Assembly: GCA_031271175.1 (NCBI GenBank)
Contig: JAISWE010000066.1
Span: forward strand, 1 to 38,497
Direction: 5' to 3'
DNA length: 38,497 nucleotides
Origin: Bacteroidales bacterium
Lineage (GTDB): Bacteria > Bacteroidota > Bacteroidia > Bacteroidales > UBA4181
The notes beneath the pieces were generated by a model. It did not search any database. It was not told where the DNA came from and worked only from the letters and a program-made list of their open reading frames with translations. Position 1 is the stretch's first letter, and the number at the start of each line of letters is the position of its first letter. This document shows, one piece after another, positions 19,669 through 24,239 of this stretch. The position numbers were made by a program, and so were the translations under genes.

Positions 19669-20433
19669 ATGAAAGTATTCGGCATCATTCCGGCACGATA
19701 TGCATCTACGAGGTTTCCGGGTAAACCGCTGGTAAAACTTCAGGGTAGAAGCATGATAGAATGGGTATATCGCCGAGCGAGTAGAGTGTTTAAGCGCGTT
19801 GCTGTGGCTACGGATGATGAGCGCATTGCCGGCGAAGTGAAAGGCTTCGGTGGTGATGTGGTGATGACCTCTCTGCTACACGCCAGCGGGACAGACCGTT
19901 GCGCGGAAGCATTGCCCCTGATGCAGGAACGGTACGGCGAACAGGCAGACGTGGTGATCAACATACAGGGCGACGAGCCTTTTACGGACGTCACCCTGCT
20001 GCACCGTCTTGCCTCCTGTTTTGACGACCCTGCCGCACAAATAGCCACTGCGGTATGTCCTATTGGCAGCCGAAATGATTTGTTCAACCCCAATTGTGTG
20101 AAAGTCGTCATTAGCGCATCCGGCAGAGCGCTGTATTTCAGCAGATCCGTCATACCTTATGTGCGGGGACACGAACAGGAACAATGGTTGCAGCAGCACA
20201 CTTTCTATCGCCACCTCGGCTTGTATGCTTATCGTGCAAACGCGCTCCTCGGTCTGACGAAATTTGAACGGTCATCGCTGGAAACGACCGAATCACTGGA
20301 ACAAAACCGCTGGCTGGAAAACGATTGCTACATCAGGGTGATACAAACCGACGGAGTGAGCATATCTATTGATACCCCCGACGATTTGGTAAAAGCGGAA
20401 AAATGGCTGGAAACCCATCCGATGACGCCATGA
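19669..20433 (+). CDS. kdsB: 3-deoxy-manno-octulosonate cytidylyltransferase
   Basis: MKVFGIIPARYASTRFPGKPL; VATDDERIA; NIQGDEPF; ETTESLEQNRWLENDCYIRV. Confidence 0.95.
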   Translation: MKVFGIIPARYASTRFPGKPLVKLQGRSMIEWVYRRASRVFKRVAVATDDERIAGEVKGFGGDVVMTSLLHASGTDRCAEALPLMQERYGEQADVVINIQGDEPFTDVTLLHRLASCFDDPAAQIATAVCPIGSRNDLFNPNCVKVVISASGRALYFSRSVIPYVRGHEQEQWLQQHTFYRHLGLYAYRANALLGLTKFERSSLETTESLEQNRWLENDCYIRVIQTDGVSISIDTPDDLVKAEKWLETHPMTP

Positions 20434-21275
20434 AATACGGAATCATCATCGCATTGCTGGCAATGATAGGCTGTACCCGCCATCCGTACGACGGTTACAA
20501 GGCGCAAAACGGAATCTATTACCGACTGTTGGAAATAGGCGAAGAAGACAAAAAATGTCGCTGTGGAGATTATGTGACGGCAAACCTGAAATATACCACC
20601 ACAACCGATTCCGTCTTTTTTTCGGGAACCCGAACGTTCGTGCTACACCCGCCCGCTTTTCAGGGGGCGGTGGAATACGGGTTCATGCTGCTGAACAAAA
20701 ACGATTCGGCGATATTCGTTATCCCTGTTGCCGGATTTTTTGAAAAAACGCTCCGTATTCCGATTCCCGCCTGTTTGAGCGGATGCCGCGATATGAAAAT
20801 CGCCGTGCGGATACTTGACGTACAAACCCCCAAAGAATATATCCGAGACAAGGAAAGCGCCCCCTTGAAAAATCACACCGCCCAAGAAACATCGCTGATA
20901 CGGAAATATATCGCACACGCAAAAATTGATGCAACACCCGACGAAAACGGGATTTATCGTGTGGTGCAACGTGCCGGTACAGGCGATGCCGTACGGAAAA
21001 ACCGGACAGTAACCGTACATTACGAAGGTTTTTTTTTGGACGGAACAATGTTTGACTCCACCCGCAGGCGAAACGCCCCTTTCCAGTTTGTGTACGGGCA
21101 ACAACAACAGATGCTCTCCGGTTTGGAAAAAGTCATCGGCATGATGTGCGAGGGCGAAAAAGTTGTTGCAATACTTCCTTCCGATCAGGCATTCGGTAGC
21201 GAAGGATCGTCAATTGGTATTGTGCCGCCTTTCACACCACTAATGTTCGAAATAGAAGTGATAGCGGTGGAATAA
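20430..21275 (+). CDS. FKBP-type peptidyl-prolyl isomerase lipoprotein with two FKBP-like regions
   Basis: Overlaps the kdsB stop by 4 bp; lipobox MIGC; C-terminal VTVHYEGFFLDGTMFDSTRRRNAPFQF..MCEGEKVVAILPSDQAFG canonical FKBP; N-terminal half degenerate. Confidence 0.88.
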   Translation: MKYGIIIALLAMIGCTRHPYDGYKAQNGIYYRLLEIGEEDKKCRCGDYVTANLKYTTTTDSVFFSGTRTFVLHPPAFQGAVEYGFMLLNKNDSAIFVIPVAGFFEKTLRIPIPACLSGCRDMKIAVRILDVQTPKEYIRDKESAPLKNHTAQETSLIRKYIAHAKIDATPDENGIYRVVQRAGTGDAVRKNRTVTVHYEGFFLDGTMFDSTRRRNAPFQFVYGQQQQMLSGLEKVIGMMCEGEKVVAILPSDQAFGSEGSSIGIVPPFTPLMFEIEVIAVE

Positions 21276-21320
21276 TCGCAATTATCCATATTCGGCAGTA
21301 GTTTTTTTGACCGACGTAAG

Positions 21321-21485
21321 CCCTAACTCCGCAAAAGTCAGGTGGCCATTTTATATAAAATATTGATATTTAAACAATTACGCTGATTTTATAGACTACC
21401 TAATTAGGTAGTCTATAAAATCCTGCATCCTTTTGTTTACTAAACTATTACAATCATATACGGGGTAAATATGACGGAGTTAGGG
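21321..21485. mobile_element. MITE-like non-coding element: 165 bp, perfect 11-bp TIRs, 6-bp flanking direct repeat, central palindrome
   Basis: TIR CCCTAACTCCG 21321-21331 and its reverse complement CGGAGTTAGGG 21475-21485; direct repeat CGTAAG at 21315-21320 and 21486-21491. Confidence 0.75.
21385..21422. repeat. Perfect 38-bp palindrome GATTTTATAGACTACCTAATTAGGTAGTCTATAAAATC
   Basis: Every base pairs about the axis 21403/21404; no spacer. Confidence 0.98.
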
Positions 21486-21608
21486 CGTAAGTGCATACCC
21501 CGTCCGGCGCTACAATCCGTACCGGCTCTTCTCTCACCTTCCAAATACATGGATAAAGCTAAACGTTTAATTTCAACCGTCTTTACGTTTGATTTGCGGG
21601 ATACGGTG

Positions 21609-24239
21609 CTACTTTCTGTCTTTTGTGCTTTTTATCTGTTCTTTCAGAGTCCGGATGCGGCTTTCGGCGTCTGCCTGTTTTTTGCGTTCCGTGTCCACCA
21701 CCTGCGCGGGGGCGCTGCTCATAAAGCGTTCGTTGGACAGTTTCTTTTCCACCGCCTCCAGAAAGCCTTCCTGACGGGAAAGCTCCGTTTCTAATTTGCG
21801 GAGTTCTTCGGCGGTGTCGGTTTTTCCTTCCAGCGGAATGAAAAATGCGGTGGTGCGTACCATGAACCGTATGGCGCCTTCGGGCGGCGCGTCAGTCGGG
21901 GTGAGTTCCGAGAGGCGACACATCGAGCACAGCAGTTCGGGGCAGGTTATTTCGCCACTGTACTGCAGTTGCAGAGCGTCCCTGACGGGTATGTTCCTTT
22001 CCTGACGGACGGTGCGCACCGCCGCCACAGTTTCCTTCAATTGCTCGAAAGCGTCGATCAGCACCGGGTTTAGGCTACCCGCACGGGGTAGCGCCGAAGT
22101 CATGATACTTTCGTTTTCGTCGCGTTCCCGCAGGTGATGCCACAGTTCTTCGGTGATGAAGGGTATGAAGGGATGGAGCAGTTGTAGCAGTTTTTCAAAG
22201 AAATCAAGGGTAGCGCGGCGGGTTTTCTCGTCGATGGGTTGTCCGTAAGCCGGTTTTATCATTTCGAGGTACCATGCCGAAAATTCGTTCCAGAACAGTT
22301 TGTAGGCGGTCATCAGCGCTTCGGATAAGCGGTACTTGTCGAACAGATTGTTCATTTCGGTGATGGAGCGGTTGAGCAGCGCCTCGAACCATTCGCACGC
22401 CTGTGCCGAGGTGGACGGCTGCTGTGCTTGTTCGTCCGTTTGCCAGCCTTTCACAAGGCGGAAGGCGTTCCATATTTTATTGTTGAAGTTGCGTCCCTGT
22501 TCACAGAGCGTTTCGTCAAAAGGCAGGTCATTGCCGGCGGGCGAGGTGAGCAGCATGCCCGTGCGCACGCCGTCCGCGCCGTATTTCTCCATCAGCAGGA
22601 CAGGGTCGGGGGAGTTGCCGAGCGATTTGGACATTTTTCTGCCCAGTCTGTCGCGCACGATACCCGTAAAGTAAACGTTGCGGAAGCAGGCTTCGCCGCG
22701 GTATTCGAAGCCGGAGACGATCATCCGCGCCACCCAAAAGAAGATGATTTCGGGCGCAGTGACCAGGTCGTTGGTAGGATAATAGTAGCAGATGTCGGGG
22801 TTGTCGGGACGGTCGATGCCATCAAACACGGAGACAGGCCACAGCCACGAGGAAAACCACGTGTCAAGGCAGTCGCCGTCCTGTTGCAGGTCGGCGAGTT
22901 GCAGGCTGCTGTTGCCGGTTTGCCGGCGGGCGAGCGTCAGGGCTTCGTCGGCGGTTTCCGCCACCACGAAGCCGCTACCGTCAGGCAGGTACCATGCGGG
23001 AATGCGGTGTCCCCACCACAGCTGGCGGCTGATGTTCCAATCCTTCACGTTTTCCATCCAGTAGCGGTACATGTTTTTGAATTTGGCGGGATGAAAGCGG
23101 ATGACGCCCTTTTCCACCGCTTCGAGCGCTGGTTTTGCCAGTCGTTCCATTTTCAGGAACCACTGCATGGAGAGTTTCGGTTCCACGGGGACGTCCGTGC
23201 GCTCGGAATAGCCCACGCTGTTGGTGTAGGGTTCCACCTTTTCCATCAGTCCCAGCGCCTGAAGATCGGTTTCGATTTGGCGACGCACCGCAAACCTGTC
23301 CATACCCTCGTACTGCAAGCCGTGCGCGTTGAGCGTGCCGTCGGCGTTGAACACGTCGATGGCTTGCAGCCCGTGTTTCTCCCCCAGCATGTAGTCGTTG
23401 ATGTCGTGGGCAGGCGTCACTTTCAAGAAACCGGTGCCGAACTCTATGTCCACATACTCGTCTTCAATGACGGGCGCTACACGGTTTACCAGCGGCACGA
23501 TCACTTTTTTCCCTTTCATGTGCGCCGTTTTCGGGTTATCGGGGTGGATGCACACCGCCACATCGCCAAAAATGGTTTCGGGACGGGTGGTGGCGACAAC
23601 GATGTAGCCGTCGTCCGGTGGGCAAAGCTTGTAGCGCACGAAATACAGTTTGCCGTGTTCCTCTCGGTGGTTCACCTCCTCGTCGGAAATGGCAGTTTGC
23701 GCGGCAGGATCCCAGTTGACCATCCGCACGCCGCGGTAAATCAGCCCTTTGTTGTAGAGATCAACAAACACTTTGATGACGCTTTGCGATCGTTTTTCGT
23801 CCATGGTGAAGCACGTCCTGTCCCAGTCGCACGAAGCGCCGAGTTTTTTCAGTTGTTCGAGGATGATTCCGCCATGCCGCCGCGTCCAGTCCCATGCATG
23901 TTCGAGGAACTGTTCGCGCGTCAGGTCGCTTTTCCGGACGCCTTCCGCAGCAAGTTTCGCCACCACTTTCGCCTCCGTTGCGATAGAGGCATGGTCGGTG
24001 CCCGGCACCCAGCAGGCGTTTTTGCCTGCCATGCGGGCGCGACGCACCAGAATGTCCTGAATAGTGTTGTTCAGCATGTGCCCCATGTGCAGCACGCCCG
24101 TCACGTTGGGCGGCGGGATCACCACCGTATAAGGCTCCCGTCCGTCAGGCGTTGATTTGAACATTTTGTGTTCCAGCCACCATGCGTACCATTTGTTTTC
24201 GGTGGTCGCGGGATCATATTTTGAAGGAATCTGTTCCAT
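21609..24239 (-). CDS. valS: Valyl-tRNA synthetase
   Basis: [21 protein letters not shown] (HIGH-like), [14 protein letters not shown] (KMSKS), C-terminal coiled-coil. Confidence 0.97.

Follow-up and report, generated by a model that had tools for sequence, protein, structure and literature searches.

The window, a stretch of 38,497 nucleotides from a Bacteroidales bacterium, contains the gene for an FKBP-type isomerase (20403-21275, plus strand) and valS (21609-24239, minus strand). The two genes converge, in agreement with the original prediction, and a 165-bp element without a transposase (21321-21485) lies between them. The element is flanked by the 6-bp direct repeat CGTAAG (21315-21320 and 21486-21491). 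It starts with the 11-bp terminal inverted repeat (TIR) CCCTAACTCCG (21321-21331, plus strand) and ends with its partner CGGAGTTAGGG (21475-21485, minus strand). Both the TIRs and the flanking 6-mer are exact at the positions where they had been predicted. Inside the left TIR, the subterminal motif TCAGGTGGCCAT (21337-21348, plus strand; family consensus TTAGGTAGCTAT) is the equivalent of the right end in the parental type of IS; its counterpart in the complete IS L150 is the right end, TTTAGGTAGTCTAT when read inward. On the other side, the motif ACGGGGTAAATAT (21462-21474, minus strand; ATATTTACCCCGT when read inward) corresponds to the left, promoter-side end of autonomous ISs (TTACCCCGTCTA).

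The center of the element is occupied by a 38-bp palindrome (21385-21422), whose arms GATTTTATAGACTACCTAA (21385-21403) and TTAGGTAGTCTATAAAATC (21404-21422) are 19 nt each and 100% complementary. Its counterpart in autonomous relatives is a palindrome at the transposase start codon. The axis, at 21403.5, is 0.5 bp from the midpoint of the element at 21403, giving a layout of 82 + 83 bp. The palindrome had been described as perfect and exactly centered; it is indeed perfect, and the centering holds to within half a base. By chance, about 1.4e-7 perfect palindromes of 38 bp are expected per window, whereas the expectation for perfect 11-bp inverted repeats no more than 200 bp apart is about 1.8. 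This means that the TIRs alone are not significant, and the case rests on the combination of features and on the multicopy alignment. The hairpin of the element forms an unusually stable RNA fold (z of -7.2). Among the window ORFs, none of 100 aa or more lies within the element, which bears out the predicted lack of coding capacity. It should be mentioned that a 107-aa frame (21471-21794) has its ATG within the right end of this element, from which it continues antisense to valS; this frame is probably due to chance.

The search for further copies was positive. The genome to which the window belongs (G000; a MAG of 2.93 Mb in 236 contigs, approximately 80% complete) contains at least 17 copies, eight of them full-length or nearly so and about nine fragmentary, with identities of 82-100%. 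Exact matches to the TIR 11-mer number 24 in this genome, and its reversed control does not occur. The copies terminate at the common ends CCCTAACTCCG, as had been anticipated, and have NTTAAN-type sequences on either side. Among 61 genomes, strong matches to the element were confined to the congeners G001 and G005, both of which hold many copies; outside the genus, five of the 61 genomes gave weak and short matches only. In a scan of one genome per species, the same end pattern was found in MAGs labelled Bacteroidales, Prevotellaceae, Tannerella, Spirochaetia, Treponema, and Chitinispirillales. ISs with this pattern, some complete and others partial, came from Bacteroidetes, archaea, and other groups. 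Judging from their isolate labels, the related MAGs may be derived from termite guts. No match to the element was found in the phages searched, and the plasmids carried only distant IS1634 transposases (25-28% identity). One viral contig carries the end pattern.

An exact 6-bp target duplication is present in 22 of the 43 complete elements compared, which come from other MAGs as well as from the own genus. When left and right flanks were re-paired in 20,000 trials, the mean number of exact 6-bp duplications was 2.4 and the maximum was 10. Exact matches at the other lengths tested from 3 to 11 bp numbered 0 or 1, and there were eight at 2 bp. The flanking repeat of the window copy had been taken for a target-site duplication, and these counts agree with that view. 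The target consensus is N-T-T/C-A/G-A-N and the duplications are mostly NTTAAN, from which the CGTAAG of the window deviates. In the own genome, two of the nine complete copies tested, the window copy included, retain an exact duplication; many copies there may therefore be old, rearranged, or misassembled.

Empty sites were found for three copies. For the window copy, the contiguous sequence G001:C55 1040-1119 aligns over 79 columns with approximately 89% identity and contains a single CGTAAG and no element. This sequence is homologous to the window flanks (21284-21528; approximately 79 bp when the element and one copy of the duplication are removed), and it is located elsewhere in G001, not in the FKBP-valS interval. 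The window flanks seem to hold a short remnant of a G001:C55-like sequence, split by the MITE. The copy in G000:C145 adjoins a tRNA-like sequence, and its empty counterpart is in G004:C13. The copy in G001:C81 is within a repeat, other members of which are empty (G001:C2, C81, and C144, and G005:C172). The common ends of the copies, the duplications above chance, and the empty sites uphold the prediction of a non-autonomous transposable element, the movement of which would occur in trans. The refutation that had been proposed along with this prediction did not succeed.

The transposase, left without a name in the original prediction, can now be assigned to a family, the IS1634 DDE transposases, through complete and partial ISs that share the TIRs and have TTAA-type targets; the immediate parent IS was not found. 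L150 is a complete IS of 1588 bp; its 11-bp TIRs are identical to those of the element, and its duplication is TTTAAA. It encodes a 490-aa DDE transposase, which scores 139 bits on the NCBIfam model for IS1634 (NF033559; cut-off 100). The transposase of L135, an IS with the same ends, scores 137 bits on this model. In the alignment of the L150 transposase, Asp185 and Asp259 are invariant and the Y(2)R(3)E(6)K segment is YKQRNEIEIMFDAYK; a search by sequence found no solved structure for this protein. The IS1634 family was described in a review of the IS4 family as having lengths of 1500-2000 bp, ends of the form C-----YT, and AT-rich duplications of 5-6 bp (PMC2266710). The terminus CCCTAACT conforms to this end pattern, and the 6-bp AT-rich duplications agree too. 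Within the genus, G001:C26 and C85 hold decayed IS1634 copies that have this TIR, and in G005:C31 the left end of an IS is located at the contig end, a position in keeping with a collapsed multicopy IS. No intact IS1634 transposase, only weak fragments, was found in the own MAG of approximately 80% completeness, so that the driver of mobilization there is deduced from relatives. The element shares its ends, motif, and palindrome with the ISs compared, whereas its spacers matched no full-length IS; the genus offered no intact IS for comparison. Derivation of the element from an IS1634 IS is supported by the ends that it shares with ISs encoding this DDE transposase; an intact parental IS in the own genome, which a MITE does not require, would strengthen the connection.

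The preference for NTTAAN targets and the CCC terminus would also suit another TTAA-favoring transposase, of the IS1380 family or piggyBac-like, and L150 does match PF13701 weakly. However, the duplication is 6 bp and not 4 bp, and the transposase within the same TIRs scores only 34.8 bits for IS1380 (cut-off 180) compared with 139 bits for IS1634. Mobilization by such a family is considered very improbable. An IS1380 (PF13701) partner is absent from the own genome, and this candidate was largely refuted. A host repeat with a regulatory or RNA function, such as a transcription terminator or a REP/BIME-like sequence, is equally improbable. The position between convergent genes and the strong hairpin would be in line with it, but it is contradicted as the primary explanation by the target duplications, the empty sites, and the identity of the ends with those of transposase-encoding ISs. 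No Rfam family matches the element at its gathering score. A secondary effect of the element on transcription is possible.

The central palindrome of the MITE consists of two head-to-head copies of the motif that is also found just inside the TIRs. In L150, a palindrome with the same core, GAGCTACCTAATTAGGTAGTCTATG, is located directly at the transposase start codon, and similar ones are present in L135, L146, L248, and G005:C31. The core is CCTAA/TTAGG, and the palindrome spans 16-22 bp in the ISs compared with 38 bp for the palindrome of the MITE. A further copy of the half-site TTAGGTAGTCTAT is present immediately inward of the TIR. The combination of subterminal motif and start-codon palindrome is seen in class A (CCTAATTAGG) as well as class B (TACGTAA) ISs. 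Elsewhere among the IS1634 relatives, TACGTAA(T), AAGTAAT, or ACGGAT serves as half-site, and the start-codon version switches along with the one at the end. The similarity between the own end and the own operator was equalled or exceeded in 10 of 20,000 re-pairings, a significance that is inflated by relatedness among the elements. From these sequence comparisons, the end motif and the start-codon palindrome appear to change together across the IS1634 relatives, including the archaeal ones. Upstream of the palindrome, candidate -7 boxes can be read in G005:C31 and L248 (TAATTTTG and TACTTTTG). We take these to be of the Bacteroidetes type, which would place the palindrome where a repressor site is expected. 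The palindrome is probably a regulatory or binding site of the IS, a relation overlooked in the original prediction. Since the motif pair repeats the sequence just inside the TIRs, it is best read as a pair of putative transposase binding sites.

The symmetry of the palindrome is maintained. In 23 distinct MITE palindromes, a subset with the homologous 38-bp palindrome that was selected after block-shuffled covariation in a larger mixed set had given no excess of symmetric changes, 15 symmetric and 22 one-sided departures were counted. The symmetric changes fall at eight distinct positions, and the shuffling null gave a mean of 3.5 and a maximum of 10. This points either to selection on a dimeric site or to hairpin-templated correction. 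In the latter case the element would still be a MITE, the palindrome of which has no binding role and is symmetric only through quasipalindrome correction, that is, template switching within a replication hairpin. Such correction explains why the palindrome extends to 38 bp around an IS core of 16-22 bp, it predicts symmetric changes like those observed, and the stability of the fold is in its favor. However, it leaves unexplained the CCTAA/TTAGG core at the IS transposase start codon, the recurrence of the motif inside the TIRs, its in-step switch to TACGTAA, AAGTAAT, or ACGGAT in other lineages, and the centered axis in families with unrelated spacers. Correction without a binding role is thus regarded as rather unlikely, though clearly less so than the two alternatives above.

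The length and spacing of the MITEs are strikingly uniform. A length of 161-167 bp is found in the own genus, a Prevotellaceae MAG, a second Bacteroidales MAG (Zx50), Spirochaetia, Treponema, and Chitinispirillales. The axis is 79-84 bp from each end in most, but not all, of the compared MITEs. The spacers of the window family and of the spirochaete family L123 are indistinguishable from shuffled sequences (z of 0.2-1.8), whereas those of several other pairs of MITE families are related. In the ISs, the distance from TIR to axis is looser (82-113 bp). A constraint on the spacing of the MITEs is a reasonable inference from these distances, not a proof. The Spirochaetia MAGs carry MITEs of 161-164 bp (L171:5533-5693 and L123:709-872) with the same ends and with spacers unrelated to the window family, which suggests inter-phylum transfer, repeated origin, or contamination of the bins. 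In addition, a contig of Altiarchaeales carries a 185-bp element (L105:3487-3671) with ends of the CCCTAACTCCG type, a TTTGAA duplication, and a palindrome of its own with the motif TTAAGTAAT. This element is an archaeal counterpart of the MITE type of the window.

Taken together, the feature is very probably a copy of a non-autonomous IS1634-type MITE inserted in CGTAAG and served by a trans-acting IS1634 transposase, with a palindrome that would be inherited from the IS operator and would most likely be bound by the transposase. In the proposed mechanism, a transposase of the IS1634 family supplied in trans would recognize CCCTAACTCCG together with the subterminal motif TTAGGTNGNCTAT at each end, and would excise the MITE or copy it. 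The MITE would then be joined to the target via cuts staggered by 6 bp, with a preference for NTTAAN. The palindrome, as a pair of the subterminal motif, would originate from the transposase operator at the IS start codon and would most likely be a further site of transposase binding, which in the IS would result in autorepression. In the MITE, the palindrome might provide an extra internal docking site, which helps to pair the ends or titrates the transposase, and the symmetric 82 + 83-bp layout would reflect this role.

A broader model can be put forward tentatively, as somewhat less than an even chance. Transposases of the IS1634 group would recognize the same motif in two settings, inside each TIR and, as a head-to-head pair, at their own start codon, so that end recognition and autoregulation would co-evolve. 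The MITEs of approximately 165 bp might then be minimal modules of two ends around an operator, whose symmetric spacing is fixed in several lineages (labelled Bacteroidales, Spirochaetia, and Chitinispirillales) by a transposase complex that spans the center and both ends. The co-change of motif and palindrome makes this a testable model of end recognition and self-limited expression in the poorly studied IS1634 transposases, and the strict length and centering allow the geometry of the transposition complex to be approached directly.

When compared with IS1634 ISs (DDE, IS4-related; NF033559), the element has the same C-----YT TIRs, the same 6-bp AT-rich duplication, and ends identical to those of L150 and L135; it differs in being 165 bp long without a transposase and in its spacers, which are unmatched in the ISs compared. 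Among bacterial MITEs, MITECca01 of Cardinium was compared with ISCca4 of the IS982 family (PMC9769881), and a 187-bp MITE of Microcystis was attributed to an ISL3-type transposase (PMC11448079). The window element resembles these two in being short, multicopy, and non-coding with the TIRs of a parental IS. However, its parental family is IS1634, its family has a strictly centered palindrome equivalent to a transposase operator, and the length of 161-167 bp is kept over families with unrelated spacers. With the IS1380/piggyBac-type TTAA elements it shares a TTAA-containing target and a CCC-type end, whereas its duplication is 6 bp instead of 4 bp and its transposase family is another. In the accessible portions of the literature naming both IS1634 and MITE, no description of an IS1634-derived MITE was found, nor one of this particular family, in keeping with the earlier suggestion that it may be undescribed. 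This is a new family of IS1634-derived MITEs; the general kind is known, and the architecture is unusually regular. A repeat family of uncultured Bacteroidales is thereby tied to a concrete transposase family. Its most notable parts are the fixed, centered geometry and the link between end motif and operator palindrome.

Two further observations were made in the own genome. A second small repeat with the ends GTGTCTGCCCGAAAAC gave 28 matches, with none in the control (G000:C129:2344-2673, G000:C126:12087-12415, G000:C36:3377, and G000:C77:5130). Some pairs of these ends are inverted and approximately 330 bp apart, and the repeat interrupts or truncates at least three MITE copies. Furthermore, the same bin contains a second valS-like sequence (G000:C213:1741-2702) with 84% identity to the valS of the window, which might mean that the MAG is contaminated or combines several strains.
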